This document shows, piece after piece, positions 299-14,396 of a stretch of 16,065 nucleotides of DNA. Below the pieces are notes generated by a model. It was not told the DNA's origin. It made no database searches and worked only from the letters and a program-made list of their open reading frames with translations. Position numbers and translations under genes: made by a program. Each line of letters starts with the position of its first letter. Position 1 is the stretch's first letter. This stretch comes from Deltaproteobacteria bacterium (GTDB lineage: Bacteria > Desulfobacterota > GWC2-55-46 > S146-70): positions 1 to 16,065 of the forward strand of contig WGFD01000124.1 in NCBI GenBank assembly GCA_015492395.1, given 5' to 3'.

Positions 299-1447
299 TC
301 AAACCTGCACACTCCCCAGGAGATCTGTATAAAGCCTTTCTAGATCTTTGATATTCCTGTTTATATTAAAGATTGAGTCCACTCTGTCGAATGCCCTGCT
401 TCCCATCCTTTGGATCAACTCAGGTGAACCTATCAATGATTTCACCTTTTCCGCAAACATCTCTGCATCTCCAAACGGAACAAGGAAACCAGTCTCATCG
501 GGCACGACAGCCTCGTTCACACCTTCCACATCGAACGCGACGATAGGCTTTGACTTGGCCATGGCCTCCAGCACCGTGATGGAGAAGGCCTCTCCGCCGG
601 AAGAAAAGACGAATAAGTCCATAATATCCAGGAGTTCATAAACGTCGCTTCTCTGTCCCAGAAGGCGGACATATCCACTCAGACCACTCGTCTCAATCAG
701 TGATTCCACATGGGCACGTTGAGGACCATCCCCAACTATCAGAAGGATAAATCTGATGCCTTCGGCCTTCAGGAGCGATACGGCTTTTATCAGAAGAGGA
801 TACTGCTTTTCCGGAACCAGCCTCCCTACAGTCCCGAGCACAGGCATGCCGGGCTGGATACCAAGAGAGAGCCTCTTTTGGGCCTTATCGCAGGATATCC
901 CGGCTATGGACTGCACATCGACACCGTTATATATCAGCGTTATCTTCTCCGGAGGGACCCTTTCTCTGACCTGTAGACTGTTCTCCATCCCCTTGGAGAT
1001 GGCTATAAAGTGGTCGATGTACGGCGTCAGCAGGCGATTGAAAAAGACTACGCGACTCTTGCGCCTGACCGGCGAACCGATCGTAGTTCCGTGGTCGGTG
1101 TGTATCACCAGGGTATGCCGGGGCAATACCGAACAGAACTTTGCCAACGGATTCTGACCATGGATATTGACCACATCTATCCTGCGCCGCCGAATGATGG
1201 AGGCGAGCCGCCTTGCTTTCCACAGATCGAATCCATTCGCCATATCGATCTTTACGACCTCATACCCATCAGCAGCCATCTCATCCGAGACCGGACCGCT
1301 TTCAAACAGAATGCACACGATGATATCAAAACGTTTCCTGTCATGCCTGCGACATAGGGAAAGGACAAACTTCTCCGCGCCCCCTACGGTTCCAAGAGGC
1401 AATACATACAATATCTTGATCTTATCTCCCACGGGGCGGATCTTCAA
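299..1447 (-). CDS. GT4-family glycosyltransferase
   Basis: This is a GT-B fold, retaining glycosyltransferase of family GT4 that would transfer a sugar from an activated nucleotide donor onto a glycan or lipid-linked acceptor at the cytoplasmic face. The N-terminal domain opens with a glycine-rich turn and GGAEKF (residues 22-27). The C-terminal donor domain has GRLVPEK (208-214, Arg209 and Lys214 as phosphate contacts), VGDGP (238-242) and the E-x7-E motif with Glu286 and Glu294 (GEAFSITVLEAMA). Length (382 aa) is normal. The TTG start overlaps the TGA of the deacetylase gene (TTGA), which suggests translational coupling. A GTG at 1432 is an equally possible start, and neither has a clear ribosome site. 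Donor and acceptor cannot be told from sequence. Pairing with a deacetylase suggests work on an N-acetylated sugar, which is inference. Confidence 0.92.
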   Translation of the reverse strand: MKIRPVGDKIKILYVLPLGTVGGAEKFVLSLCRRHDRKRFDIIVCILFESGPVSDEMAADGYEVVKIDMANGFDLWKARRLASIIRRRRIDVVNIHGQNPLAKFCSVLPRHTLVIHTDHGTTIGSPVRRKSRVVFFNRLLTPYIDHFIAISKGMENSLQVRERVPPEKITLIYNGVDVQSIAGISCDKAQKRLSLGIQPGMPVLGTVGRLVPEKQYPLLIKAVSLLKAEGIRFILLIVGDGPQRAHVESLIETSGLSGYVRLLGQRSDVYELLDIMDLFVFSSGGEAFSITVLEAMAKSKPIVAFDVEGVNEAVVPDETGFLVPFGDAEMFAEKVKSLIGSPELIQRMGSRAFDRVDSIFNINRNIKDLERLYTDLLGSVQV

Positions 1448-2445
1448 AAGAAGAGGTAAGGGCTCGGCGCCACACCCCTTCTTTTCAGTATTAATGGATC
1501 CTCAATAGGATATTGCTCGGCTCCGGCATTGGTAGTGCAGGCGTATTCAAATCCTTCTTTCAGCAAGACAGCACTGATATCCTCCGTAAAGTCTTCAGAC
1601 TTTCCATGTGGATACGCAAAAGTCGTGACAGGCTTTTGAATCCGGTCCTCTATGATCCTCTTCGATTGAGTAATCTCTCTCCGCGCTTCGGAATAAGATA
1701 TGGAGCTCAACACAGGATGCGACATGGTGTGGCTGCCGAATGAAATCCCCTCCCTGGACATCTCCTTCACCTCATCCCACGACAGCATGGGCCTGTCACC
1801 GTCCCCGGGCCATGTCATTACTTTACACATATCTCCCATGGCATCTAGTATATCTTCCCGCGTCCTTGCCGCAAGCGGCTTCAGGTCCGCCGCAAGGTCA
1901 CGCAATATGGTAGCGGCATCGAACTGCGGTTTGGATCTATGGAAGAGAGCTATCCTCTCTCCAATAACATCCGGCAGCCCGCCCCTCACAATATCCTTTC
2001 TTCCAGGAACCTTGGCGCCGTTATATAGTATCCATGACAACCTATCGTACCAAAGCAGCCGGCCTGTGCCTATGTAGTCCGTCGCCAGGAAGACCGTGGC
2101 CGGGACCCCGTACTTTTTTAGTACAGGAAAGGCGTATGTGTAGTTGTCCCTGTAACCGTCGTCGAAGGTAAGGATCACCAGATCCTTGCCATCTCCTCCC
2201 CTCTCCATCATCTTGAGGTCTTTCAGGTCTACAATCTCGTAGTGTCTCGATAAGAAACGGACTTGCCTCTCAAAGACATCAGGGGGAACAACGGTCTCAA
2301 AGAATGGCCGGGCCTCATAGTCTACCCTGTGGTACATCAAGATAAATATCCTGCACTTGCCGGAAATCCTACGCCAATATATCTTCACGAATGGGAGCCC
2401 ACCATAAAAAAGGAGCGGGCGCAGATTATTCTTCATCCCTCCCAT
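1444..2445 (-). CDS. Polysaccharide deacetylase (NodB homology domain)
   Basis: This is a carbohydrate esterase family 4 type enzyme that removes N- or O-acetyl groups from a glycan using a metal ion. Motif 1 is TFDDGY (residues 93-98, catalytic base Asp95 and metal ligand Asp96). Motif 2 is HTMSHPVL, giving metal ligands His239 and His243. Motif 3 is FAYPHG (276-281). An insert at about 125-215 separates motif 1 from motif 2, and an MYHRV motif (38-42) precedes the domain, as in many deacetylases of exopolysaccharide loci. No signal peptide or membrane span is seen, so it probably acts in the cytoplasm or on a membrane-linked intermediate. It starts 8 bases after the sulfatase-fold gene and overlaps the following GT4 gene by 4 bases. 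The ATG at 2445 lacks a clear ribosome site; an ATG at 2436 is the alternative. Confidence 0.9.
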   Translation of the reverse strand: MGGMKNNLRPLLFYGGLPFVKIYWRRISGKCRIFILMYHRVDYEARPFFETVVPPDVFERQVRFLSRHYEIVDLKDLKMMERGGDGKDLVILTFDDGYRDNYTYAFPVLKKYGVPATVFLATDYIGTGRLLWYDRLSWILYNGAKVPGRKDIVRGGLPDVIGERIALFHRSKPQFDAATILRDLAADLKPLAARTREDILDAMGDMCKVMTWPGDGDRPMLSWDEVKEMSREGISFGSHTMSHPVLSSISYSEARREITQSKRIIEDRIQKPVTTFAYPHGKSEDFTEDISAVLLKEGFEYACTTNAGAEQYPIEDPLILKRRGVAPSPYLFF

Positions 2446-2453
2446 ACACGAAA

Positions 2454-3941
2454 CTACATGTAGCCCAGTGATTTCAACTGCTCAATGGCATACTCATCCA
2501 TCTCGTTTCCATGTGATTCACCCTCGATCTTCTCCCTATTTGCATTATAGAATTCATCCATCCTCTTGTAGTACTTAGCGGCCTTTTCAATCAGGACGGA
2601 AAAGTTGTCATCGCCGGGGTAAAGATTGTTTGATTCCAATGGATCCTTTGCCAGATCGTAACACTCATGATCGCCCCTCGATGAATATATGAACTTGCGA
2701 TCCCTCGTACGCACACTCAGGAGACGGCGGTCATATTCGCCTAGCCTCTCCCTGTGGTGTATCCGGTCCGGTCCGTAGACCTTTACAAGCTCCGTAACGG
2801 CGAGGTCCTCTTCACGCCTCGGAGGCGCACTCTCCAACATGTCGTTACCCATGATCTGATCCCATATATTGCGCTCTTTTATGCCTAACATGGACAGTAT
2901 CGTCGGAAAGATATCTACATTCTGGACGACCTTCGGTATCCTCCCCCTGACTCCGGTCGTATCAGGATACTTTATGAGCAGTGGAATCTTGATAAGGGTG
3001 TCATACAGGCAGAAGTAGTGAAACATCAACCCGTGATCGCCGATATTGTCTCCATGATCGGACAGTACTATCAACAAGGTATCGTCGTAGATTCCATGCT
3101 TCCGCAGTAATCCGGCTATCCTTCTTATAAGGCGATCCACATAATAGATGGAGTTGTCATATGCCGACATGAGGATCCTGAAGTCATCGTCGGTCATACT
3201 GCACCTCTTCAGGAGGTACCTCAGATGATCATGGTTCACCAGAAGTTTCCTGATATTGTCTCTGACCGACAGGAACTTGAGTGAATGGTGCAACGGGGCG
3301 CGATAGGGAGAATGTGTTTCCAGAAGATGAAAGTACGCAAAGAAAGGCTTCTCCTCTTTTCTATGAAGTATCTTTGAAAAGCGGTTGACGAACTCGCCAC
3401 CTCCCCTATCCATCAAGATATCATAAATCCTTGACATGATACTATAGATGTAACCCTTAACGGTATCGGACTCATCGGACTTTCCCTCCGGCGAACCCGT
3501 GCACCCTGGGGGACGAAGACGGTCGATAGATCTCTTAGATATAGCGCTCCCGATCCTTTTCATGAAATCATCCACTGCATGCCCGGAGTGGAAATTGTCG
3601 AAACCGTAATCGAGGCCTGAAAAACCGGATACATAGAAGTTCCTGACAAAGGCGTGGCAATCGTAGCCGTTCTCCTGCAACACCTTCGGCAGTACCGCGA
3701 GGGATTGATCGAGCTTATCTCCGTCGGCAACAAGGCCATGGCCGGACGTATACATACCCGTAAACAGGGACGCTATGGACGGCATGGTCCAGTAGCTGGA
3801 AGAAACGGCATTCTCATAAACGGCCAGGTCCCCCTCCATAGAGGAGAGAAAGGGCGTGGTGTTCCTTCCATAACCATAAATCGGGAGGTTCTGCGCCCTT
3901 ACGGCGTCGAGGGTTATTATGACGATATTCGGCTTCAGCAA
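2454..3941 (-). CDS. Sulfatase-fold hydrolase/transferase with Thr at the nucleophile site
   Basis: This is an alkaline-phosphatase-superfamily protein of the sulfatase branch. PNIVIITLDAVR (4-15) carries metal ligand Asp12. LLETHSPY (206-213) carries His210. LSDHGDNIGDHG (293-304) carries Asp295, His296 and His303. The C-terminal YDLAKDPLESNNL (428-440) is typical of sulfatases. The active-site segment is WTMPSIASLFTG (51-62): Thr52 stands where true sulfatases have the Cys or Ser that becomes formylglycine, and the CxPxR arginine is Ile55. It is therefore more likely a phosphodiester or phosphoglycan hydrolase/transferase, or uses Thr as nucleophile. No signal peptide is seen. The TTG start at 3941 puts the first strand at residue 4; an in-frame stop lies only seven codons upstream. 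Many databases would label it 'sulfatase'; sulfate-ester cleavage is doubtful. Confidence 0.85.
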   Translation of the reverse strand: MLKPNIVIITLDAVRAQNLPIYGYGRNTTPFLSSMEGDLAVYENAVSSSYWTMPSIASLFTGMYTSGHGLVADGDKLDQSLAVLPKVLQENGYDCHAFVRNFYVSGFSGLDYGFDNFHSGHAVDDFMKRIGSAISKRSIDRLRPPGCTGSPEGKSDESDTVKGYIYSIMSRIYDILMDRGGGEFVNRFSKILHRKEEKPFFAYFHLLETHSPYRAPLHHSLKFLSVRDNIRKLLVNHDHLRYLLKRCSMTDDDFRILMSAYDNSIYYVDRLIRRIAGLLRKHGIYDDTLLIVLSDHGDNIGDHGLMFHYFCLYDTLIKIPLLIKYPDTTGVRGRIPKVVQNVDIFPTILSMLGIKERNIWDQIMGNDMLESAPPRREEDLAVTELVKVYGPDRIHHRERLGEYDRRLLSVRTRDRKFIYSSRGDHECYDLAKDPLESNNLYPGDDNFSVLIEKAAKYYKRMDEFYNANREKIEGESHGNEMDEYAIEQLKSLGYM

Positions 3942-3967
3942 AGACTCTCTGTCGGACGGTTATAAAT

Positions 3968-3996
3968 AAAAAATTATCTCTGGTGCACAGTAGAGA
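3968..3996 (-). terminator. Weak hairpin followed by a T-run (possible intrinsic terminator)
   Basis: On the minus strand a 5-base stem (TCTCT/AGAGA, at 3996-3992 and 3981-3977) with a 10-base loop is followed by TAATTTTTTATTT. It lies in the 73-base gap between the GNAT gene and the sulfatase-fold gene. The stem is short, so termination would be weak at best. The stretch may simply be AT-rich spacer or part of a promoter for the downstream three genes. Confidence 0.22.
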
Positions 3997-4014
3997 GTAG
4001 AGGAGATTCTTCAG

Positions 4015-5100
4015 TCACCGGGTCTGCAAAACTTTTCCCATATCTCTATGTATAAGGCGATAATCGCTGTCACCTAACATATAAAACCAGTTCTTCTCAT
4101 CTTTCAGAAGTGCCAGCGGCATGTCTTTATCCTTATTAGGCACCACTATCAAGTAATGTGGGATAGGCCTCTTGATAAATCCCTTCTTCCTTAGAACAGG
4201 ATATAAGCAGTGGTTATACGGTATCCAGCATATGATGCTCTCAGCGCCTTGATTGATGAGGTATCTGACAGCGGCCGACACAAGTTTTTCCATAATCCCG
4301 GGAGTATTTGGAATACAGACAATATCATCTATGATGCCGTATGCTATACCCTTATCTTTTTCAATACGAAAAACGATAAAACCTTTCAGCATCTCCTTCT
4401 TTCCGGTCGCATATACCCTGTACTTCACGGCAGGGCACTTGAAGTAACGCCAGTTGAGATACTTTGAATCCTTCGCCACCATTACCCTTGCCAATTTCGC
4501 CTTCTCCCAGAGGTCATCGAAATTCCCGTCGAAATTAGATATCTCATAGACATCCGCATCTCCGCTTGACAACCTCTCCTCCCTCCACTTGAGATACCTT
4601 CTTATATTTCTTCCAAGAACCGGCATGCCGGGGATCTTTACTTTTCTGTCAAGGTACTGCGTAGGATCTATGACCTTCACAACCCTGCCTATAGGAGCGA
4701 CCAGACTAAACCCAAGCGTTTTTATCGATATATCTTTCGTAGCCTCTATAGAGAATCCGAGACCAAAGGCCAGATTACGGCATTCTCCCTCCCTTTTAAC
4801 CATCCTTCCCAGGTGAAAGAAAGTTCCTCCCTTCCGGTAATTCTCAAGGATATCACTATCAACCTGGTGGGCCGCCATCACATCATCGGAATCAACCCTG
4901 AACCTAAGAGGAACGAATCCTATCCTTCCGACTATCCTTTCACCATCAAGCGCAAGCGCAATACAAGGAGGGCCGGAAGGGTTCTCAAAATATTTCCATT
5001 TCCAGAATGCCGGATCGATAAAAGATCCGCTCACCTCTTGATAAAACCGCGCCAGTCCTTCCTCGTCCCCTTCAACGCACAACCTGTAAGTCAATGCCAT
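4015..5100 (-). CDS. Tandem GNAT-fold acyltransferase
   Basis: This 361-residue protein has two GNAT-like halves. The first (about 1-145) has a helix carrying FWKWKYFENP (32-41), a central ERIVGRIGFVP strand, a V-x-D...YRKGG stretch at the usual acyl-CoA loop (80-92) and a closing KTLGF (127-131). The second (about 185-345) repeats the pattern with YLNWRYFKCP (214-223), strands at 239-262, a helix at 267-283 and RKKGF (304-308). Such double-GNAT proteins occur in polysaccharide and cell-wall loci (compare FemABX). The reaction would be N- or O-acylation of an amino sugar or amino acid. It follows the two ketosynthases by 69 bases, so acyl-ACP is a plausible donor, but that is inference. The ATG at 5100 has no Shine-Dalgarno site. 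The frame stays open 13 codons upstream without another ATG, GTG or TTG. Confidence 0.8.
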   Translation of the reverse strand: MALTYRLCVEGDEEGLARFYQEVSGSFIDPAFWKWKYFENPSGPPCIALALDGERIVGRIGFVPLRFRVDSDDVMAAHQVDSDILENYRKGGTFFHLGRMVKREGECRNLAFGLGFSIEATKDISIKTLGFSLVAPIGRVVKVIDPTQYLDRKVKIPGMPVLGRNIRRYLKWREERLSSGDADVYEISNFDGNFDDLWEKAKLARVMVAKDSKYLNWRYFKCPAVKYRVYATGKKEMLKGFIVFRIEKDKGIAYGIIDDIVCIPNTPGIMEKLVSAAVRYLINQGAESIICWIPYNHCLYPVLRKKGFIKRPIPHYLIVVPNKDKDMPLALLKDEKNWFYMLGDSDYRLIHRDMGKVLQTR

Positions 5101-5169
5101 GGGATATTCACACCAATCAAGTATTTTCTTAGATACGGACTATGTCGGCAATGATTAACAAGGACATCC

Positions 5170-6408
5170 TTATTGGCGCCTATATCTTGTGAGAATAATT
5201 GAAGCATTAGCCCCTCCGAAACCGAAAGAATTAGTCATAACCGTATTTACAGCGCTTCTTCTCCCTTTATTCGGGACGTAATCCAGGTCACACTCGGGAT
5301 CCGGAGCTTCATAGTTTATTGTAGGCGGAAGGAATTGATTTTCTATGGCCAAAATAGAGGCAATCGACTCTACAGTACCGGCGGCGCCAAGGAGATGTCC
5401 TATCATTGATTTGGTGGAACTTACCGGTATAGAGTATGCCATACTCCCAAAGACATTCTTGATTGCTTCGGTTTCTCCCTTATCGTTTATCGGGGTGGCA
5501 GTGCCATGAGCATTAATATAATCAACTTCTTCATTTGAAATATTACCGCTTTCTAAAGCGCCCTTCATAGCCTCGGCTTGCCCACGTGCATTAGGGAAGG
5601 TCAGGTGATAGGCATCTGAGTTGGACCAATATCCAACGACTTCACAATAGATATTTGAATCCCGTTCCATGGCATGTTCCAGGCTTTCCAGTATGACCAC
5701 CCCGGCACCTTCACCCAATACCGGGCCATCCCTATCCTTACTGAAGGGACGGACGGCCTGCTCTGGAATGTCATTCCTGGTCGATAATGCCCTCAACTTG
5801 CACCACCCACACAGCATGGCGGGGGTAATAGGCGCTTCAGACGCCCCGGCAACTATTACGTCTGCATACCCATGTTTGATCAAGCGATATCCTTCTCCTA
5901 CGGAAACAGCTCCGGATGAACAGGTATTGGTAATAGAGTAGTTAAGTCCCGTAATGCCGTATTCGATCGCAATGTTTGTAGCAGGCGCAACACCCATTGC
6001 CTTGGGAAGAGTCATAGGATCGATAGCTCTCGGCCCCTTCGAGAAGAATTTCCTATACTGTTCCTCACGGGTATTTATTCCACCTTCGCTTGAACCCCAA
6101 ATAACACCGATACGATTCTTGTTACTATCATTTAATGCAAATTTGCTGTCCTCGAAGGCCTCTTTAGTCGCAACCATCGCAAGTTGACTGAAACGATCCA
6201 TCACATATACCTTTTGGAGACTCAGATACTTTGAAGGATCAAACCCTTTTATCTGGGCGGCGATCTTTGTGCGGTATGGACTTGTATCGAATCCTTCTAT
6301 GAGCCTTACACCCGACACCCCCCTTTCCAGCGAATTCCAGAAGGCATCCTTCCCAATTCCTATGGGACTCACGACTCCTATACCTGTTATAACAACTCTG
6401 CGGTCCAA
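5170..6408 (-). CDS. fabF: Beta-ketoacyl-ACP synthase (FabF type), second of tandem pair
   Basis: This is a thiolase-fold condensing enzyme that joins malonyl-ACP to an acyl thioester by decarboxylative Claisen condensation. The residues are complete: Cys163 (NTCSSG), His301 (NAHGTATP), Lys333 and His338 (STKSMIGH), with a C-terminal NSFGFGGANAS loop. Length (412 aa) matches FabF. The start is TTG at 6408, with GGAG at 6420-6417 eight bases upstream; the ATG nearby is in another frame. It lies 18 bases after a paralogue with clearly similar sequence throughout. The active-site neighbourhood (TCSSGAVSVGEG) differs from the FabF-standard TACA type of its partner, so chain-length or primer choice may differ. 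Because Cys is kept it is not a chain-length factor. The symbol reflects family, not proven housekeeping role; a NodE-like or PKS-like specialised role is as likely. Confidence 0.92.
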   Translation of the reverse strand: MDRRVVITGIGVVSPIGIGKDAFWNSLERGVSGVRLIEGFDTSPYRTKIAAQIKGFDPSKYLSLQKVYVMDRFSQLAMVATKEAFEDSKFALNDSNKNRIGVIWGSSEGGINTREEQYRKFFSKGPRAIDPMTLPKAMGVAPATNIAIEYGITGLNYSITNTCSSGAVSVGEGYRLIKHGYADVIVAGASEAPITPAMLCGWCKLRALSTRNDIPEQAVRPFSKDRDGPVLGEGAGVVILESLEHAMERDSNIYCEVVGYWSNSDAYHLTFPNARGQAEAMKGALESGNISNEEVDYINAHGTATPINDKGETEAIKNVFGSMAYSIPVSSTKSMIGHLLGAAGTVESIASILAIENQFLPPTINYEAPDPECDLDYVPNKGRRSAVNTVMTNSFGFGGANASIILTRYRRQ

Positions 6409-6416
6409 GGCACATT

Positions 6417-6420
6417 CTCC
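6417..6420 (-). promoter_or_regulatory. Shine-Dalgarno site fixing a TTG start
   Basis: GGAG (within AGAGGAG) on the minus strand lies eight bases before the TTG at 6408-6406. It supports TTG as the start of the second ketosynthase, since MDRRVVITG is the usual family N-terminus and no in-frame ATG is near. Confidence 0.6.
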
Positions 6421-6426
6421 TCTATC

Positions 6427-7674
6427 TCAATCTTTCCATTTCTTAACTAGTAATACTGCATTGGTCCCGCCAAATCCGAAAGAACTCGACATGGCGATGC
6501 TCAACTCGGCCCTTCTGCCGACATTCGGCACATAATCAAGATCACACTCCGGATCGGGAATTTCATAATTTATTGTCGGTGGGATAAAACCATTCCTCAT
6601 GGCAAGTATAGATGCAATCAACTCAATAGCTCCAGAGGCCCCGAGGGAGTGACCTATCATGGATTTAGTCGAACTTATCGGAATAGAATAAGCTCGTTTA
6701 CCAAAGACAGTCTTTATTGTCTCCGTCTCCACCTTGTCATTCGCCGTGGTTGCAGTGCCGTGGGCATTGATGTAGTCAATATCATCCGGATTAACCCCCG
6801 CATCTGCCAATGTAAGCTCTATCGCCCTTATCTCCTGCTCTTTATTCGGATAGGTAAGGTGGAAAGCGTCACTGGTAGAACCATAACCGATGATCTCTCC
6901 GTAGATTCCGGCTGATCTGGCGACGGCACTATCCAGGCTCTCGAGAATCAGCATTCCCGACCCTTCAGCCATGACCAACCCGTCTCTATCCTTGCTGAAA
7001 GGCTTGCATGCCCTTTCAGGTTCTCCATTATTTGTAGACATCGCCCTGAGCTTATTCCATGCGGAGAAGCATACTGGGGAGATAGGCGCGTCCGACCCCC
7101 CGGCGACCATAATCTCGCCATACCCATTCTTGATCCTTTGATAGGCCTCGCCTATGGCGTTTGTAGCGGATGCGCACGCCGTAGATATGCCGAAACTTGT
7201 TCCTGTGAAACCAAAGTGCATACATATATTGCTTGCCCCCGCATTAAACATGACAAGAGGCACAGTCAAAGGGTTAACATAACGGTGTCCTCTGACAAAA
7301 AGATCTTTAGCGGCGATCTCATGAGATATGATGCCTGCGACAGCGGACCCAAGTATCACGCCGACCTTTTCCTTAATGCCATCGTCAATCTTCAAATTAC
7401 TGTCTTGAAGGGCCAAGGACGTAGCGGCGATCGCCAACTGAGTAAAGCGGTCCATCCTTTTGATCTCTTTCGGCTCCAAATACTTTTCAGGGTCGAAGTC
7501 TTCTATCTGACCAGCGATCTTAGTTCTGGATGCCGAGGTGTCGATACTTGTTACCAACCTTACTCCGGATACTCCATTCGCGACGGAATCCCAGAAGGTC
7601 TCCATATCCGAACCAACAGGAGTAATTAAGCCCATCCCAGTCACGACAACTCTTCTTCTATTCTTTTCAGACAT
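6427..7674 (-). CDS. fabF: Beta-ketoacyl-ACP synthase II (FabF type), first of tandem pair
   Basis: This is a condensing enzyme for acyl-chain elongation on ACP. Numbering from the ATG at 7674 (MSEKNRRRVVVTG), the catalytic residues are Cys167 (STACASATNAIGEA), His305 (NAHGTATT), Lys337 and His342 (STKSMIGH), with SSFGFGGTNA near the C-terminus. Length is 415 aa, normal for FabF. The ATG shares its A with the TGA of the upstream ACP gene (TGATG), a classic coupling overlap. A TTG at 7695 would add seven residues and cut into the ACP gene, so it was not used. The neighbouring ACP is its natural substrate carrier. It resembles FabF more closely than its downstream copy does. It could act as a homodimer or form a heterodimer with the paralogue. 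Confidence 0.94.
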   Translation of the reverse strand: MSEKNRRRVVVTGMGLITPVGSDMETFWDSVANGVSGVRLVTSIDTSASRTKIAGQIEDFDPEKYLEPKEIKRMDRFTQLAIAATSLALQDSNLKIDDGIKEKVGVILGSAVAGIISHEIAAKDLFVRGHRYVNPLTVPLVMFNAGASNICMHFGFTGTSFGISTACASATNAIGEAYQRIKNGYGEIMVAGGSDAPISPVCFSAWNKLRAMSTNNGEPERACKPFSKDRDGLVMAEGSGMLILESLDSAVARSAGIYGEIIGYGSTSDAFHLTYPNKEQEIRAIELTLADAGVNPDDIDYINAHGTATTANDKVETETIKTVFGKRAYSIPISSTKSMIGHSLGASGAIELIASILAMRNGFIPPTINYEIPDPECDLDYVPNVGRRAELSIAMSSSFGFGGTNAVLLVKKWKD

Positions 7675-7928
7675 CACGGTTGGCGATCCATACAACTTCT
7701 GACAACATCAACAGCCGCACCGAAGGAGCTTATCTTGATGGCCTCCTCATCCGGGATATCTATGTCAAATTCCTGTTCCAGGGCCGATAGGATGCCGAGG
7801 GCGGATAGAGAATCCCCCCCCAAGTCCGCTATAGTGGTTTCTCTAGCAATCTCCCTGTCTTTTACCTGCAAAACATTCTCTATAACCCCTCTCACTTTCT
7901 GTTCGATCTCATCAAGTCTCTCTTCCAT
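7674..7928 (-). CDS. Acyl carrier protein
   Basis: This is a small acidic four-helix carrier (84 aa) that holds the growing acyl chain on a 4'-phosphopantetheine arm. The attachment serine is Ser40 in DLGGDSLSALG (35-45), followed by the helix-II recognition segment ILSALEQEFDIDIPDEEA. GGAGG at 7937-7933, four bases before the ATG, supports the start. It sits 25 bases after the 3-oxoacyl reductase and overlaps the first ketosynthase by one base. The housekeeping ACP motif is usually DSLD-VE; here it is DSLSALGI, which points to a dedicated, NodF-like or PKS-like carrier. Activation would need a phosphopantetheinyl transferase encoded elsewhere. Confidence 0.94.
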   Translation of the reverse strand: MEERLDEIEQKVRGVIENVLQVKDREIARETTIADLGGDSLSALGILSALEQEFDIDIPDEEAIKISSFGAAVDVVRSCMDRQP

Positions 7929-7953
7929 TTTTCCTCCATTTCCATATGTTATC

Positions 7954-8700
7954 TTAAAAAAGACCTCCGTCTACTCTTATTACCTGCCCTGTTAGATAGT
8001 TTGATAAATTGGAAGCAAGGAATAAAACGACGTCAGATACCTCTTCAGCCTTACCGAACCTTCTTAAAGGAATATACTCCAAATAGCGATTGAGCATCTC
8101 TTTCGGAATTCCGGTCAGCATATCCGTCTCTATATAACCCGGCGCCACCGCATTCACGTTGACTCCGAAGGGAGCCAGTTCCCTGGAAAGAGACTTCGTG
8201 AATCCTATTATCCCACCTTTGGATGCCGTATAGTTTGTCTGCCCCGGAGATCCAACGATACCGCTCAGGGAAGCCATATTCACGATCCTTCCGCTTCTTC
8301 TCCTCATCATCGAGAAAGCGACATGTTTTGTAACATTAAATACGCCGAGAAGGTTCGTATTTATAACATCTACCCAGTCATCTGGCTCCATATTGATAAG
8401 AAACTTATCTCGAATAATACCTGCGTTGTTGACAAGTATATCTATCGGTCCCAGGGTGTCGCGCACGGTCTTTACCATCGCTTCAGCAGCCTTATAACCG
8501 GACACGGAACACTGTATCCTTACCGCCTTTCTCCCGAGTTCCCTTATAGCCTCCTCTATCTTTTTAGCTGTTTCGTCACTGGAAAGATAGTTGATTGCAA
8601 TATCGGCGCCGTTTCTCGCCAATGTCAAGGCTATTTCACGGCCTATACCGCGAGAAGCGCCTGTCACCAATGCCACTTTGCCTTTTAATCCAAGCTCCAT
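7954..8700 (-). CDS. fabG: 3-oxoacyl-ACP reductase (FabG-type short-chain dehydrogenase)
   Basis: This enzyme reduces 3-oxoacyl-ACP to 3-hydroxyacyl-ACP with NADPH in the cytoplasm. From the ATG at 8700 (MELGLKGKVALVTG) it is 248 aa, the normal FabG length. It has the Rossmann TGASRGIG (13-20), NNAG (91-94), Asn116, Ser144, Tyr157 and Lys161 (TNYTASK) as the catalytic tetrad, the PGYIETDM segment (187-194) and a C-terminal TGQVIRVDGG. GGAGG at 8708-8704 lies three bases before this ATG; a TTG at 8742 or ATGs at 8724 and 8712 would extend the protein with unconserved residues. It leads the cassette ACP, ketosynthase, ketosynthase. No dehydratase or enoyl reductase is adjacent, so full reduction would rely on enzymes elsewhere, or the product is a 3-hydroxyacyl chain. 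Confidence 0.94.
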   Translation of the reverse strand: MELGLKGKVALVTGASRGIGREIALTLARNGADIAINYLSSDETAKKIEEAIRELGRKAVRIQCSVSGYKAAEAMVKTVRDTLGPIDILVNNAGIIRDKFLINMEPDDWVDVINTNLLGVFNVTKHVAFSMMRRRSGRIVNMASLSGIVGSPGQTNYTASKGGIIGFTKSLSRELAPFGVNVNAVAPGYIETDMLTGIPKEMLNRYLEYIPLRRFGKAEEVSDVVLFLASNLSNYLTGQVIRVDGGLF

Positions 8701-8766
8701 AGGCCTCCCCATATCAGCACTCATGCCAAATGCCGTTATCAAGATAGACCGAATACCCCGCCTCGC

Positions 8767-9813
8767 TTAACTGTACTTCGGACACTTCACACAACACGCA
8801 GGCATACCGGTCTTCAGTTCATGGCGGAACTTCCTGTAAGGCTCGCCATTCCATATATCACCAAAATCACTCTCAAATATATTACCGAAATATGCACTCT
8901 CATCATAAAAGCTGTAACAACACGGATTTATCCATCCAGTTGAGTTAACGTAGGTTGTTTTCCATGGATCGACGCACGTCCTCTTACTCCGTTTGTTAGT
9001 AATCCTGCCGGACATATCTCCAAAAGAAAGAATGAAATTCTTGGAGTCAGCTTCTTGTTTATATCTCTTTAACATTTCTATATCTTCCAACGAAAGAGGA
9101 CTTCCTTCCGTCTGTTGATCTTCCAGGAAGCGATGTAGATTCAAACCGTTGCCACCAAGATCTTTTACGATCTCTATCAGTAGAGGTATTTCATGAACAT
9201 TCTCATGCATCGCAACCATAAAAACGGAAAGGCCGGGGCTTTTTTTTCCCATCTCGTCCCTTATTTCAATAAAACTGCGGATATTATCGCACAAATCAGA
9301 GAACTTTGCCCCGACTCTGATCCTTTCATACGTCTCCGGTTTGCCGCCATCAATCGAAACATTGATATTTATCAGACCATCGGCTTTAAGAAGTTCCTCA
9401 GCCTTTTCCGGCGTTAGCAGGGCGGCGTTGGTGAAAAAAGCGGTCTTGATTCCCTTGCTATAGGCATACCTAATCATATCCGCTATATTAGGATTCATCA
9501 GGGGTTCGCCGACACCATTTATCAGCGCAAATTGAATATGAGGCAGTTTGTCCAATATCACCTTGAATTCCTTCATCGTTAATATCTTGCGCGGATTCCG
9601 GCTCTTCCATGATGCTACGGAGTGCGCGCACATCCTGCACTTCAAGTTGCACACATTCGTGGTCTCTATCTGTGCCGTGATCGGATAGCTTCTGACATAG
9701 GAAGGCAGCCTCTTCAAGGTATAGAACTTCGTCAACGGCAGGTTGATCAAACTTCCAACGCCCTGTTTCCTGACAAGCTCCCCACATCGCTTCGCTTTAC
9801 TGCTCAAACTCAT
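8767..9813 (-). CDS. Radical SAM protein with SPASM-type C-terminal domain
   Basis: This enzyme would cleave S-adenosylmethionine at a [4Fe-4S] cluster to start radical chemistry. Numbering from the ATG at 9813 (MSLSSKAKRC), the cluster motif is CNLKCRMC with Cys55, Cys59 and Cys62, preceded by AQIETTNV. The partial-TIM-barrel signatures INGVGEPLMNP and FFTNAALL follow. The C-terminus has TCVDPWKTTYVNSTGWINPCC and, at the end, PACCVKC, the cysteine layout of SPASM or twitch auxiliary-cluster domains. AGGAG at 9825-9821 and GAGG at 9821-9818 favour this ATG; an ATG at 9831 adds six residues. The protein is 348 aa. No precursor peptide gene is visible beside it, so a glycan or small-molecule substrate is as likely as a peptide. 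An A8 run within the gene at 9240-9247 does not break the frame. Confidence 0.88.
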   Translation of the reverse strand: MSLSSKAKRCGELVRKQGVGSLINLPLTKFYTLKRLPSYVRSYPITAQIETTNVCNLKCRMCAHSVASWKSRNPRKILTMKEFKVILDKLPHIQFALINGVGEPLMNPNIADMIRYAYSKGIKTAFFTNAALLTPEKAEELLKADGLININVSIDGGKPETYERIRVGAKFSDLCDNIRSFIEIRDEMGKKSPGLSVFMVAMHENVHEIPLLIEIVKDLGGNGLNLHRFLEDQQTEGSPLSLEDIEMLKRYKQEADSKNFILSFGDMSGRITNKRSKRTCVDPWKTTYVNSTGWINPCCYSFYDESAYFGNIFESDFGDIWNGEPYRKFRHELKTGMPACCVKCPKYS

Positions 9814-9855
9814 CTTACCTCTCCTGCTCATCCGCTCTTCTGCAGGTACTGTATC

Positions 9856-10746
9856 CTATATGCTCTCATTCCTCTTCTGCTCAAGAAGCAGATTTCTTAG
9901 AAGTACGAGGACTGATGTATTGATCCCCGCAGCCAAATACAGGAGAACGATCTTCAATTTCACAGCTCCCAGGAAATGGCGGACATTGGATAATGTCCGC
10001 AAGGACCTTGGTATTGTATTTGTAGCGTGCCTCTTCTTGATCCACTCCTCACACCGTCTCAACGTATTATAATTGGCAATATATCTTTCGGGTGGCGGCA
10101 TGAGCTTTCTGGAGTTGGATGTTATTTCCAAGTTCCTTAACCCTAAGAAGAGGCAAATATTTCGTATCTCTCCGGTGAAATCATCACACAGCTTTTCATG
10201 TCGAACCGTATAAGTCTCGTGGGTTTCGGTCAATCCCGAAGTGATTTCACTCACTCGCAGGCAGTCCATGGCGTACAATACGAAACGCAACGGATTTAAG
10301 TAAATTCTTTTCAACCTCCGGGAGTCCGCCCCATTGTCCCATGAATGGTATATCCTGGTCCTCTTTGCGCTGATCCCGGACCCATACTGTGCGACAATGT
10401 CCTCCCTATCCAAGAGTATGATCTTCATCTTCGGCAAGTCCCTGCGGAGCGTATCCACAACCATCCTGGCCGCATTTGGTGAGGTCGTACTGCATGCCTT
10501 TGCGCCGCAATGTGTCACTCCGCTCTTCTCCCCCCGCATCGTAATTGCATTAAAGATGGCCTGTCTCCCCGACATACGCTCCTCTTCTGTCTCGTTTCCA
10601 AACGTGAAAGTCCGAATACCAAGGTCAAAGAATGGACTTATCGTCAATTCATCCGTCAAGACGGATACGTTTGGATGCTGCATCAACGCCTTATGGATGG
10701 CGGTTGTGCCGCTTCTCTGAATCCCTAATATCAAGTATTGTATCAT
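9856..10746 (-). CDS. Sulfotransferase family protein (NodH/Stf0-like)
   Basis: This is a P-loop-like enzyme that moves sulfate from PAPS to a hydroxyl or amino group. From the ATG at 10746 (MIQYLILGIQRSGTT) it is 296 aa. The 5'-phosphosulfate-binding motif is GIQRSGTTAI (8-17) right at the N-terminus, and the 3'-phosphate-binding region is LLDREDIVAQYGSG (111-124), with Arg114 and Ser123. The longer reading frame begins at 10824 but overlaps the upstream gene and adds an unconserved basic stretch, so the ATG at 10746 was chosen; it has no strong ribosome site and lies 16 bases after the upstream stop, so coupling is likely. Residues 264-288 form a hydrophobic segment that may associate with the membrane. 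The spacing to the 3' motif resembles carbohydrate sulfotransferases acting on oligosaccharides or glycolipids, but the acceptor is unknown. Confidence 0.82.
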   Translation of the reverse strand: MIQYLILGIQRSGTTAIHKALMQHPNVSVLTDELTISPFFDLGIRTFTFGNETEEERMSGRQAIFNAITMRGEKSGVTHCGAKACSTTSPNAARMVVDTLRRDLPKMKIILLDREDIVAQYGSGISAKRTRIYHSWDNGADSRRLKRIYLNPLRFVLYAMDCLRVSEITSGLTETHETYTVRHEKLCDDFTGEIRNICLFLGLRNLEITSNSRKLMPPPERYIANYNTLRRCEEWIKKRHATNTIPRSLRTLSNVRHFLGAVKLKIVLLYLAAGINTSVLVLLRNLLLEQKRNESI

Positions 10747-10762
10747 TGTGAATATATCTAAG

Positions 10763-11590
10763 TCAGCGCCAAGACGCCAATTCTCGGTCCAGCAACATTG
10801 AGAGTTTTTTCTTGTCTTCCGCAAAGAGCTGATTCAGCCGGGACCTGGTAGCAGGAGCGATCTTCCTTGAGTCATCGTTATGGGCCATATTATATTGCCT
10901 GATCTTGTCTATCAGTCCCGTTTTTTTAAGACCTTCGGCAAGCGAGTAAAGGCCGGCCTTTCTTATGGCGCTCCTCGTTATCACCATACCCATCTCCACA
11001 AACCTTACCTTGGGATTCACGGTAGAGTGTACCCTCCGGTTCACCGTTGAGGGCATAAAAGAGGCATCTATCTCCAGGAACTCATATATGGTTTCAAGAA
11101 ATGACTTCGCATCCTTCGTTAAATCTTCATAGACCAGGACCAATATCCGGCGCCGATCGAAGTACTCTAAATACCTGCTGATATGTTTATAATAATACGC
11201 GCCTTCAAGAATATGCGGCTTCTCATTCAATGCCTCCTCAAACGTGTTATTATACATATTCCTGTTTACTATGTAAAGATATCTTGAGTAGACCTGCTCC
11301 ACAGGATTCCTGAGAGATATGATCAACTTAACATCGGGAAGAAGCTCCTTGATCCTCCCGGGGGCCAGACCATTAGCCAAATAAGATGGTGAAAATTCTC
11401 CAACAAGGCTCCCGGCAGGACATTTGTCGAAAAATTTTTCATACCACTCCACTCCCTTATCATAATAAGTGTTAAAAAAATTTATCTCCTTCTCCTTGGA
11501 CATGCATATCCGCGGATGGTTCTTCAACATTTCATATATCCACGTCGTGCCGCTCCTTGGAGCCCCAATGCCGATAAAGTCAGGTAGCAA
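10763..11590 (-). CDS. Sulfotransferase (Sulfotransfer_1 type)
   Basis: This PAPS-dependent sulfotransferase has 275 aa. The 5'-PSB loop is GAPRSGTTWI (9-18), preceded by the usual PDFIGI strand. The 3'-PB motif is LRNPVEQVYSRY (93-104), with Arg94 and Ser102. A KEKEINFFN segment (32-40) and GEFSPSYL (64-71) match bacterial carbohydrate sulfotransferases. The start is TTG at 11590, and AAGGAGGA at 11601-11594 just upstream makes this choice strong. A sigma70-like promoter precedes it, so this may be the first gene of a transcript running through the acyl cassette. It shares only the cofactor motifs with the following sulfotransferase, so the two are unlikely to be a recent duplication and may sulfate different positions or acceptors. 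PAPS-making enzymes are not in the window. Confidence 0.9.
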   Translation of the reverse strand: MLPDFIGIGAPRSGTTWIYEMLKNHPRICMSKEKEINFFNTYYDKGVEWYEKFFDKCPAGSLVGEFSPSYLANGLAPGRIKELLPDVKLIISLRNPVEQVYSRYLYIVNRNMYNNTFEEALNEKPHILEGAYYYKHISRYLEYFDRRRILVLVYEDLTKDAKSFLETIYEFLEIDASFMPSTVNRRVHSTVNPKVRFVEMGMVITRSAIRKAGLYSLAEGLKKTGLIDKIRQYNMAHNDDSRKIAPATRSRLNQLFAEDKKKLSMLLDRELASWR

Positions 11591-11678: not shown

Positions 11679-13133
11679 TTAATCATCCAACACCAGGTTG
11701 AAATCTCTGACGCCTTTTTTGAGCAACTCGATTCTAAAGATTCTAGGTTTGCCGTCTTCCGGAATAAGCGTGATCTTGTAGGCACCAAAAAAACCTTTAA
11801 ATTCTACCTTTCCTTCGTCCGAGGAAACTGCTTGAGTCTTGGTCCACCACTTATTGCGTATCAAGTCCTTTAACGCGAAGTAAGCCGGCTTCGGAGTCAT
11901 GTCCTTTCTTAATAAACCTGCGGGCGCGTTTTTCCAGGCCGCAAGATCGGTCAAGTTCCACCACATGATTCCTTCTACTGCCGGATGGCTGAAAAGGGTG
12001 GTGTAGAGATTAACTACGTACTCCGCCTGAATGCGCTCTCCCTTTAGGGTAGTCCTTTTGCCAAAATTCTTGCCGGCATTAGGTGTCCCGCTAAGAACCG
12101 TAACTTCCGTAAAATGAATCGGTACGCCGAATCTCGAATAACCTTCGCAAACCTTCCAGACCGAGTCCAATGTCCACAGTTTTTTGTGCATATGACTCTG
12201 TATCCCGATGATGTCATACAGGGGTCTGCCTTTGGAGTCCTTCAGACTATCAAGGAGTTCAGGAAATCCGTATTTCTCTCGAATAGATACCTCGTTTATC
12301 ATTAACTTAGCGGCAGGATAAGCCTCCCTGGCCACTTCGAAGACCCTTGAGTAGAAGGCCTCCTTCCCGATCTTCTTTATACACCTTGTCATCTTATTCT
12401 TCTTGAATATGGGGCGAAACGGGTTGGAAGGTTCGTTGAGCAAAAGATAATAGTCATACCTATCCTTATAGTAACCAATAAAATCCCTGACCCGCTTCTC
12501 AACCGCTTTGCTGAGCTTGCCACAGTCCCTGGGCACCCATTCCGGCGACCTGTTATTCCAGACCAGTTGATGCGCCAAGACCTTGCTTCCGTTCTCATGA
12601 AACCACTTAAGCTCACTATCGTACAGTGCATAGTCTATATCGCCTTTTTTGCTTTCATACAATCTCCAGCCCACCGGCAGGGACGTATAGTTTGCAAATT
12701 CGAAGAATCTCCTTCTATATTCTTCCACTTGCCGGTCGTCAATCTTATACTTCTTTAGCCAGTGTTTGGGAATTTCAAGCCCATACTTTTTTGAATAGAT
12801 CAGCCCATTGACAACAATGCTGGTATTGAGCCCAAAGAGGAACTCATGTCCTTCCTGCTCCACTTCAACCCTTGCGCCTGAAACAGGGCGCCCATCCCTC
12901 GTTAGAAATCTCAGCGTGGCAGTCGTCTTACGATACTTTTCTATCCTCTTATCGGCGCCAGCAAGGATTTCAACCTCCTCGGGTTTAAGTTGTGCCAAGA
13001 CATTACCAGTCCCCAAACCCGCAACGGCATCAACAGATAGCAGGCACGGCATAGCTTGTGACAAAAGTGTGATCGCCACCACCAAAAGACTTATTCTGGA
13101 AGCCTTAGAGAGTATGGTTTTCATGTATGCCAT
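11679..13133 (-). CDS. Secreted glycoside hydrolase family 10 (endo-beta-xylanase-like)
   Basis: This is a retaining endo-glycosidase of the (beta/alpha)8 GH10 family. A signal peptide spans roughly residues 4-38 (hydrophobic core LLVVAITLL, possible DAVA site), so it acts outside the cytoplasm. A small beta-domain follows (about 70-105: RDGRPVSGARVEVEQ, then HEFLFGLN), as in plant-like and some bacterial GH10 proteins. In the barrel, AHQLVWNN (187-194) matches the GHTLVWH strand. Glu234 in LLLNEP is the acid/base, His314 in IQSHMH matches the conserved strand-6 His, Glu343 in IHFTEVTV is the nucleophile, and EGIMWWNLTDLAAW (387-400) closes the -1 site. Length is 484 aa from the ATG at 13133; an ATG at 13124 may be the true start, and neither has a clear ribosome site. 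No carbohydrate-binding module is recognised. Substrate may be xylan or the locus's own glycan. Confidence 0.88.
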   Translation of the reverse strand: MAYMKTILSKASRISLLVVAITLLSQAMPCLLSVDAVAGLGTGNVLAQLKPEEVEILAGADKRIEKYRKTTATLRFLTRDGRPVSGARVEVEQEGHEFLFGLNTSIVVNGLIYSKKYGLEIPKHWLKKYKIDDRQVEEYRRRFFEFANYTSLPVGWRLYESKKGDIDYALYDSELKWFHENGSKVLAHQLVWNNRSPEWVPRDCGKLSKAVEKRVRDFIGYYKDRYDYYLLLNEPSNPFRPIFKKNKMTRCIKKIGKEAFYSRVFEVAREAYPAAKLMINEVSIREKYGFPELLDSLKDSKGRPLYDIIGIQSHMHKKLWTLDSVWKVCEGYSRFGVPIHFTEVTVLSGTPNAGKNFGKRTTLKGERIQAEYVVNLYTTLFSHPAVEGIMWWNLTDLAAWKNAPAGLLRKDMTPKPAYFALKDLIRNKWWTKTQAVSSDEGKVEFKGFFGAYKITLIPEDGKPRIFRIELLKKGVRDFNLVLDD

Positions 13134-13271: not shown

Positions 13272-14384
13272 TCATTGCTTAAGGTAAGCATTTAGTGCAT
13301 TTTGGTAAACGCCATTGGTCAACCCGGCTATACGCCGCCAACTCAAGGCGGTATTAGCCACCTCATACGCCGCCTTGCCCATAGATATGCTTTTCTCAGT
13401 ATTCTCCAATATACTTATTATGGCTTCAGCCAGTCCCTCCTGATCTCCAGGTGAAATAATTATACCGGTCTTCCCATCTTCCACAACTTCTGCAAGGCTT
13501 CCTACGTCCGTAACTATGACAGGTTTGGCGAAGGCAAAGGCCATGGCGACAACACCGCTTTGGCTACCCTCGATATAGGGAAGAACCACCACTGACGACC
13601 TTTCGAATAGCACAGCTATCTCCTCGTTGGGGATATACCGATCGTGTATCTCGAAATGTGGATTATTATCTATGAACTTTTTGTTTAAAGTCAGATCTTG
13701 CCCCCGGCCTGCCACTATTATCTTGAAATCTCGTACCTTTCGCCTGATTATGCGCTCCGCTTCAATCAAATACCTCAGCCCTTTATACTTTTCCATCCTG
13801 CCGAAAAACAGAATGGCACGCTCTCCCTCCATATCAACTTTACTGGAGCCGGCATTCTTGAAGGAGAAGAGGCATCCATGTGGTATCACAAAAATATCGT
13901 CCGGATTTCGTTTAGTGTTTGTCACTAAGGCATTCTTGAGAGTATGGCCGTGCACTATGATCTTTTCGTAAAATCGTTTGCGTATAAAGTCGCCGAATGC
14001 TATTAAGTAGTTGTTCCTTTCTGTTCCAGGATGGGGTTCGACATCATGTATGGTAGCCACAACAGGGATGAAGATAGAGAATGGAATCAGTACAAGTGGC
14101 GAAAAATCTCTGGATTCTTGATAGTGGACAACATCAGGCCTGAAGTCGAACAATACCTTTATAATCGCAATAAAGTTCTTTATTATTAAAGGGTTTTTCC
14201 CGGAATATCTTTCAAGTAGCGTATATGAGACTTTACCGCCCAAGAGATTGTCCAAGCTCTGTTTAACCGTGGAGGACACCTTGGGCTTCGAAAGTATGAG
14301 ATGTACCGTATTCTCACTGCTTAAAGCCCTGGCCAACTCTACCGCATACTCTACAAAATGCAAGGAGACAAGAAGTATTTTCAT
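13272..14384 (-). CDS. GT4-family glycosyltransferase (E-x7-A variant)
   Basis: This GT-B glycosyltransferase has 370 aa from the ATG at 14384 (MKILLVSLHF). The N-terminal half has DVVHYQE (84-90) and ATIHDVEPHPG (110-120). The donor-binding half has FFGRMEKYKG (193-202, Arg196 and Lys201), VAGRG (224-228) and EGSQSGVVAMAFA beginning at Glu272. The second Glu of the usual E-x7-E is Ala280, a variant seen in a subset of GT4 enzymes; PVIVTDVGSLAEVVEDGKTG (288-307) is otherwise canonical. It differs clearly from the other GT4 in the window. It starts 12 bases after the phosphodiesterase-like gene. A TTG at 14393 would add three residues and also lacks a well-placed ribosome site. Donor and acceptor are unknown. 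Confidence 0.9.
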   Translation of the reverse strand: MKILLVSLHFVEYAVELARALSSENTVHLILSKPKVSSTVKQSLDNLLGGKVSYTLLERYSGKNPLIIKNFIAIIKVLFDFRPDVVHYQESRDFSPLVLIPFSIFIPVVATIHDVEPHPGTERNNYLIAFGDFIRKRFYEKIIVHGHTLKNALVTNTKRNPDDIFVIPHGCLFSFKNAGSSKVDMEGERAILFFGRMEKYKGLRYLIEAERIIRRKVRDFKIIVAGRGQDLTLNKKFIDNNPHFEIHDRYIPNEEIAVLFERSSVVVLPYIEGSQSGVVAMAFAFAKPVIVTDVGSLAEVVEDGKTGIIISPGDQEGLAEAIISILENTEKSISMGKAAYEVANTALSWRRIAGLTNGVYQNALNAYLKQ

Positions 14385-14396
14385 CCCTTTCAAATG

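Follow-up and report, generated by a model that had tools for sequence, protein, structure and literature searches.

Contig WGFD01000124.1 (C124) of Deltaproteobacteria bacterium (assembly GCA_015492395.1; 2.09 Mb in 359 contigs, 93% complete) carries 14 genes and the start of a 15th, all co-directional on the minus strand, which may well form an operon for a surface polysaccharide (or glycolipid) that includes a separate branch for acyl decoration. The analyzed stretch, referred to below as the window, is this entire contig of 16,065 bases, and the analysis extends to its two ends. The genes are transcribed in the following order: a phosphodiesterase-family protein, a family 4 glycosyltransferase (GT4), a family 10 glycoside hydrolase (GH10), two sulfotransferases (ST1 and ST2), a radical SAM/SPASM protein and a FabG-type reductase, followed by an acyl carrier protein (ACP), two ketosynthases (KS1 and KS2), a GNAT-type acyltransferase candidate, a sulfatase-fold protein, a polysaccharide deacetylase, another GT4 and the gene cut by the contig end. 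The gaps between neighbors range from -62 to 138 bases and no terminator-like sites were found between the minus-strand genes of the window, so a single operon is plausible. The earlier note on this DNA had described a co-directional Nod-factor-like enzyme set at 299–11590; all the enzyme classes that it named are present there on the minus strand and were correctly assigned, and the list has to be extended by the radical SAM/SPASM protein, two alkaline-phosphatase-superfamily proteins, GH10 and the second GT4.

The ACP, the two KSs and FabG form a cassette that is not the housekeeping type II fatty acid synthase (FAS II) of this bacterium, because a separate FAS II cluster is located on contig C94. 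A ketoacyl-synthase family search recovered three KSs from the genome, KS1, KS2 and the one on C94, which sits in the order FabD-FabG-ACP-FabF; in the tree this FabF clusters with the FabFs from another 13 genomes in the class. The cassette as the genome's only FabF/ACP/FabG set, which would have spoken against the reading in the earlier note, is ruled out by this cluster. KS1 is 45% identical to the organism's own FabF, 42% to that of E. coli and 40% to NodE; the respective values for the window ACP are 44% to AcpP, 41% to the organism's own housekeeping ACP and 30% to NodF, and for the window FabG 46% to the organism's own housekeeping FabG, 44% to E. coli FabG and 40% to NodG.

A protein search with KS1 yielded 30 proteins at an E-value of 1e-140 or better among 8000 candidates scored, 29 of them besides KS1 itself. 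In a maximum-likelihood tree of 69 rows (68 different) these 29 best matches, KS1, KS2 and four KSs from loci of the Brocadia class form a 35-row clade (support 99/95), from which the housekeeping FabFs, NodE (a long branch) and the KSs of locus L011 are excluded (labels of this type denote homologous loci read in other genomes). Membership of the clade follows partly from the choice of rows, the 29 being the best matches to KS1; the tree still separates 20 housekeeping rows. KS1 belongs to a 14-row subclade (100/99) and KS2 to a 7-row one (100/100), and the names on other members include Deltaproteobacteria and Eisenbacteria. Two KS2-clade and two KS1-clade proteins apparently share contigs of 49,417 and 17,092 bases (matched by size); the KS1–KS2 pair is therefore probably conserved beyond the window.

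At FabF position 202 all 35 rows of the clade carry Trp, as does NodE, and all 21 housekeeping-type sequences, including that of E. coli, carry Phe. Ser107-Glu108 is present in 7/7 members of the KS2 clade, and Glu at position 108 is found in KS2 and its six nearest relatives, every other listed row having a hydrophobic residue or Gly there. F202 and I108 of FabF are described as gating residues (PMC7138838), and judging from its polar Glu108, KS2 may handle a short or polar chain. Both window KSs retain Cys163, His303, Lys335 and His340 and so do not form the pair of a KS and a chain length factor; a type II polyketide synthase of that kind is ruled out by the active-site Cys present in both.

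Some of the neighborhoods of this clade outside the window connect it with polysaccharide export. Genome counts for KS1 include the centre genome where it was matched, the E-value serves as a proxy for the clade, and the phyla were sampled; up to four candidates per genome were scored in the searches of the L011 phylum, of the organism's own phylum and of 392 genomes around Brocadia. At 1e-142 or better, KS1 matched 4/392 genomes around Brocadia and 5/75 of the Brocadia class, where the clade is thus patchy, and none of 395 genomes of the L011 phylum or of 95 around L020, the empty searches having been run without a positive control. Three of the five clade loci of the Brocadia class lie beside polysaccharide-export genes: L102 (sugar transferase, Poly_export, ACP-KS, Wzz, an LpxL-type acyltransferase, Wzx, a phosphodiesterase and a glycosyltransferase), L104 (sugar transferase, Poly_export, Wzx, ACP-KS and phosphodiesterases), and L117 (a Poly_export-like gene, ACP-KS and a Wzz-like gene, followed by the contig end). 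In the other two the gene next to the ACP-KS pair is GNAT: L103, and L118/L028, in which a family 2 glycosyltransferase (GT2) follows on the opposite strand. The type I phosphodiesterase family to which the first gene of the window belongs also adjoins the clade KSs of L102 and L104; at 10717–19901 of L104, four genes of this family come after ACP-KS, with other genes interspersed.

The ACPs of L102, L103 and L028 are 59–66% identical to the window ACP (47% in L104) and are nearer to it than is the organism's own housekeeping ACP at 41%, so by these identities the clade KS and its ACP seem to be inherited as a pair. Within the organism's own class 49/63 genomes match KS1 at 1e-120, and within its phylum 9/395 at 1e-135. 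An ACP and FabG adjoin the KS in all 37 loci fetched from these other genomes (29 from the class and eight from the phylum), FabG being partial in two; all are housekeeping fab clusters, and no second copy of the clade was found among them. Among the genomes behind the GNAT loci 7/22 match KS1 at 1e-125, with 49% identity at best. When plasmids were searched with KS2 and the deacetylase, the matches listed were general relatives only. It is proposed tentatively that a distinct KS clade with its partner ACP, scattered over unrelated groups (the Brocadia class, Deltaproteobacteria and Eisenbacteria records), feeds an exchangeable acyltransferase, Eis/NMT-like here and in Brocadia and LpxL-type in another genome of the Brocadia class, in an undescribed acyl decoration of surface polysaccharides, which would yield lipid-bearing and, in this organism, possibly sulfated amino-glycans outside the rhizobia.

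The putative acyltransferase of the window was called a GNAT-fold candidate in the earlier note, and the predicted model, with two GNAT domains over its whole length, bears this out. Alone, the protein falls below the Pfam cut-offs (17.0 bits against 20.7 for PF00583, and 12.6 against 25 for PF13527), and 5/7 of its nearest homologues pass that of PF13527. All 50 structure matches listed for its model are N-myristoyltransferases (NMT); for the model of a distant homologue, Eis-family entries tie with NMT, at lower root mean square deviation. NMT identity was dropped because of this tie, and an Eis/NMT-like double GNAT is all that is claimed. The best 50 matches per model were considered, and the position of MshD and FemX outside those 50 is uninformative. 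Both Eis and NMT acylate amines, and a C-terminal carboxylate has been proposed to act as their base. The window protein resembles both in its two GNAT domains and may also do so in having a carboxylate close to, or at, the catalytic position near the C-terminus: Asp346, invariant in 11/11 sequences and in 30/32 of a wider set, is the last residue aligned with the NMT C-termini in most rows of the structural alignment of the predicted model; identity in the structural alignments is about 8–14%. It is shorter than Eis, an acetyl-CoA enzyme that has a third domain (PMC4964394). On the strength of the models, the window protein is a candidate amine N-acyltransferase.

Neighbors of this GNAT family were counted in 39 loci with all open reading frames. 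In six of them GNAT has a deacetylase within 1.5 kb, with a single case at 1.5–10 kb (p 0.0003; p = 0.02 after a weak match in L017 is dropped and L041, L043 and L045 are merged); the non-overlapping set of reading frames alone gave a deacetylase in three. In L012, L041, L043, L045 and L047 a distance of 21 to 351 bases separates the polysaccharide deacetylase gene from the GNAT match, with the deacetylase on the opposite strand in L047, and the two genes could form a deacetylate-then-reacylate pair. GT4 is enriched near GNAT, 23 of 56 GT4 matches falling within 1.5 kb. The C-terminal tail [GS][DE]xD-x-x is present in 29/39 loci, and the two modelled members are Eis/NMT-like in fold. In L011, a sulfotransferase, GT4, a dehydrogenase, a MaoC dehydratase, FabG, three KSs, ACP, GNAT and a PMT-type glycosyltransferase follow one another in one direction; no deacetylase was found in this locus. 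According to the tree the L011 KSs are of a lineage different from the KS clade, and that members of this GNAT family also stand next to a second KS lineage speaks for a connection in function. The family is wide, with records also from Thermoplasmata, Bathyarchaeota, Lokiarchaeota and Thorarchaeota.

In the proposed scheme the ACP, loaded with malonyl by housekeeping enzymes, would serve chain growth by KS1 and KS2, and FabG would reduce the 3-keto product to 3-hydroxyacyl-ACP; a longer chain could be formed with the help of the housekeeping dehydratase and enoyl reductase. The deacetylase would free an amino group on a sugar placed by the GT4 enzymes, the double GNAT would move the acyl group onto this amine, with Asp346 lying where the carboxylate base of Eis and NMT has been proposed, and the sulfotransferases would add sulfate from 3'-phosphoadenosine 5'-phosphosulfate (PAPS). 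PAPS genes, which the earlier note advised looking for, are indeed present in the genome: an adenosine 5'-phosphosulfate (APS) kinase identified by Pfam lies on C86 together with an ATP sulfurylase and a CysH-like gene, both named by reading the sequence. We infer the order of the steps, the acceptor, the donor, the chain length and the export in this scheme, and as the full gene combination was seen once, the sulfated, acylated, partly deacetylated product is offered as a hypothesis.

Several observations weigh against an acyl-decoration operon. No counterparts of the deacetylase and the sulfotransferases were seen in the five clade loci of the Brocadia class (stretches of 6.4 to 20 kb, searched by BLAST at 1e-4 with the window proteins, L117 by eye), and among the loci examined the window alone combines them with the cassette; the same gene set, which the earlier note advised looking for in related genomes, was not met again, and L011 has another KS lineage and no deacetylase found. 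L102 contains the LpxL-type acyltransferase and no GNAT was seen in it. KS-clade and GNAT proteins apparently co-occur only on the window contig and on one Brocadia contig (the second Brocadia GNAT, on a 69,746-base contig, is that of L103; the same GNAT and KS1 as in the window are also listed for a contig of 38,865 bases), and the nearest KS1 relatives, such as those on the 49,417-base contig, may use another acyltransferase or a GNAT too distant for the search. A KS near GNAT was found in 2/39 loci, L011 and L028, a weak excess (p 0.04), so most of the GNAT family works without a KS, and most of its members may be plain acetyltransferases. One of the L011 KSs lacks the active-site Cys and another the second His, hence the genes there may encode a synthase of another type. 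Finally, the window contains no flippase, polymerase or export genes, and the cassette contains no dehydratase, which would leave a 3-hydroxyacyl product unless housekeeping enzymes help.

Some of these points would suit a different explanation, which is unlikely though the most serious of the alternatives, namely that a special membrane lipid, or the lipid anchor of the glycan, is what the cassette produces and that GNAT is an ordinary acetyl-CoA-dependent sugar N-acetyltransferase. The 37 of 39 GNAT loci without a KS in the stretch read, the tie in fold with Eis, described as an acetyl-CoA enzyme (PMC4964394), and the LpxL-type gene two genes after ACP-KS in L102 agree with it. It is opposed by the position of GNAT, which directly follows ACP-KS in two genomes of the Brocadia class and comes after FabG, three KSs and ACP in L011, the KS lineages being different, as well as by the FAS II cluster present elsewhere in the genome. 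It is improbable that the genes are chance neighbors from separate pathways, with the same operon also yielding a small product of polyketide or fatty-acid type that has nothing to do with the glycan: the full set was not met twice and KS-clade and GNAT proteins are mostly on different contigs, but the clade ACP-KS pair recurs in polysaccharide-export loci of three of the five Brocadia-class genomes, and the window genes are separated by short gaps devoid of terminator-like sites.

A cluster of the ladderane or polyunsaturated-lipid type is very improbable. The KSs, ACP and FabG stand side by side with a radical SAM gene, and extra FabF, ACP and radical SAM genes are described as combined in the ladderane-type FAS II clusters of the anammox bacterium Kuenenia (PMC2649909). 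Unlike in those clusters, the window KSs keep their catalytic residues, belong to another clade, in which the KS of the Brocadia ACP-KS pair joins them while the remaining KS paralogues of Brocadia fall elsewhere in the tree, and are surrounded by glycan genes. A ladderane-type cluster was ruled out on the basis of the intact KS active sites and of the lack of an amine-oxidase/phytoene-desaturase-like family among the window proteins scanned.

The comparison with Nod factor genes was made with the nod stretch of S. meliloti pSymA, a record without annotation in which genes were assigned by position and class. Like the S. meliloti nodABC, nodFEG and nodH genes, the window has a dedicated ACP, KS and reductase together with a deacetylase, an acyltransferase and sulfotransferases. 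It differs from them in having two paralogous KSs, sulfatase-fold, phosphodiesterase and GH10 genes, and in lacking NodA and NodC, its KSs, ACP, FabG and deacetylase being outside the Nod subfamilies. NodA is a GNAT-type acyltransferase; the window GNAT gave no BLAST match to S. meliloti NodA at an E-value of 1 or better and no NodA family match. The absence of a NodC-type GT2, claimed in the earlier note, holds for the 15 window proteins scanned with Pfam, the search for GT2 having been confined to them. The deacetylase scores 29.8 bits on the NodB model TIGR04243, with a cut-off of 240, and matches S. meliloti NodB over stretches of 72 and 36 residues only; FabG scores 219.9 bits on the NodG NCBIfam model, with a cut-off of 436. 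ST1 is 24.5% identical to NodH over 200 amino acids (E 2e-5), indicating the same superfamily only, and ST2 is weakly similar to it. A specific kinship with NodE, NodF and NodG is ruled out, the window KSs, ACP and FabG all being nearer to housekeeping FAS than to the S. meliloti Nod proteins, and so is membership in a Nod system, with no NodA- or NodC-like protein in the window and the NodB and NodG cut-offs missed widely. Judged by sequence, the likeness is one of enzyme classes only, and of the Nod-factor-like set proposed earlier these classes and the glycan context stand. A true Nod-factor-type system producing sulfated lipo-chitooligosaccharides, to which the shared classes of NodB, E, F, G and H, the Trp202 of NodE and the weak NodH similarity might point, is scarcely credible given these scores and affinities.

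The nearest described logic is that of the viosamine island of Pseudomonas syringae (vioS, vioR, acp, vioB), with Nod as a second parallel. There, a KS, a reductase and an ACP have been proposed as the source of a 3-hydroxyacyl group destined for the sugar amino group of a surface glycan (PMC3927599), a small local set like that of the window; the island differs in that VioS is a KS III, in its acyltransferase, and in the lack of a sulfotransferase or deacetylase among its seven listed genes. A viosamine-type cassette with a FabH-type KS III is ruled out for the window, as both of its KSs exceed the TIGR03150 fabF cut-off. Within a limited library and choice of wording, no paper was found on an acyl cassette with a sulfotransferase and deacetylase in exopolysaccharide or on anammox polysaccharide clusters with a ketoacyl synthase and ACP, and no title or start of abstract dealt with such a cassette or with a relative of NMT in prokaryotes.

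If the acyl-decoration reading is true, amino-glycans with acyl tails extend beyond rhizobial signals and beyond the short acyl groups of flagellin sugars, and uncultured bacteria, among them the anammox class, would have put a separate KS-ACP lineage to use on their coat sugars. The work also draws attention to a wide Eis/NMT-like GNAT family, which occurs in both bacteria and archaea and whose genes are often found next to glycosyltransferases. The Trp202 shared by the KS clade, the Glu108 of KS2 and the GD[ST]D tail of GNAT provide handles for searches, and the locus provides a directly testable enzyme pair.

Features of the window, in order of transcription (positions on the 16,065-base contig)
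Feature	Position	Strand	Evidence
Alkaline-phosphatase-superfamily protein, type I phosphodiesterase family	14397..16064	-	PF01663 114.6 bits; T-A-A-A-W-T-S-F-M-T-G stretch
GT4 glycosyltransferase (second)	13272..14393	-	PF13692, PF00534
GH10 glycoside hydrolase	11679..13133	-	PF00331 110.4 bits
Sulfotransferase 1 (ST1)	10763..11590	-	PF00685 81.9 bits; RSGT motif
Sulfotransferase 2 (ST2)	9856..10824	-	PF13469 44.3 bits; RSGT motif
Radical SAM/SPASM protein	8767..9831	-	PF04055 and PF13186; CNLKCRMC
FabG-type ketoreductase	7954..8742	-	TIGR01830 312.5 bits, cut-off 297.75
Acyl carrier protein (ACP)	7674..7928	-	PF00550; DSL motif
Ketosynthase KS1	6427..7695	-	TIGR03150 528.8 bits, cut-off 493.75; Cys163, His303, Lys335, His340, Trp202
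Ketosynthase KS2, KS1 paralogue	5170..6408	-	TIGR03150 534.2 bits; catalytic residues kept; Ser107/Glu108/Trp202 in acyl pocket
Double-GNAT amine acyltransferase candidate, Eis/NMT-like fold	4015..5100	-	Predicted two-domain GNAT model
Sulfatase-fold protein, Thr for formylglycine Cys/Ser, Ile for motif Arg	2454..3941	-	PF00884 151.2 bits; SSYWTMPSIASLFTG
Polysaccharide deacetylase	1444..2445	-	PF01522 100.6 bits; metal-site motifs TFDDG, HTMSHP
GT4 glycosyltransferase	299..1447	-	PF00534 131.7 bits

The sulfatase-fold protein carries T-M-P-S-I where formylglycine sulfatases have C/S-x-P-x-R, and its SSYWTMPSIASLFTG aligns with P-S-R-A in a sulfatase of solved structure; the formylglycine sulfatase motif is thus replaced at the aligned place. 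The spacing of the Thr is that of nucleotide pyrophosphatases, and a phospho-transferase or phosphodiesterase with a Thr nucleophile is a more likely identity for the product than a sulfatase. The radical SAM/SPASM protein, encoded directly before FabG, is far below the cut-offs of all 25 best NCBIfam models listed. KS1 with its listed start overlaps the end of the ACP gene by 22 bases, and the first gene of the operon starts one base from the contig end, so that the true gene may extend further. Scans for tRNA genes and Rfam families gave no matches in the window. The gene start at 1–312, cut by the contig end, has no Pfam match; by eye, its DFNGDG stretch resembles FG-GAP/CRTAC1-type secreted proteins. 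The GH10 protein has a hydrophobic N-terminus and is likely exported, and its NEP and TEV stretches resemble, again by eye, catalytic Glu sites. Poly_export genes are present on two other contigs of the genome, C236 and C335, accompanied by genes that look Wzz-like by eye; on C335 these genes lie beside an alkaline-phosphatase-superfamily protein.

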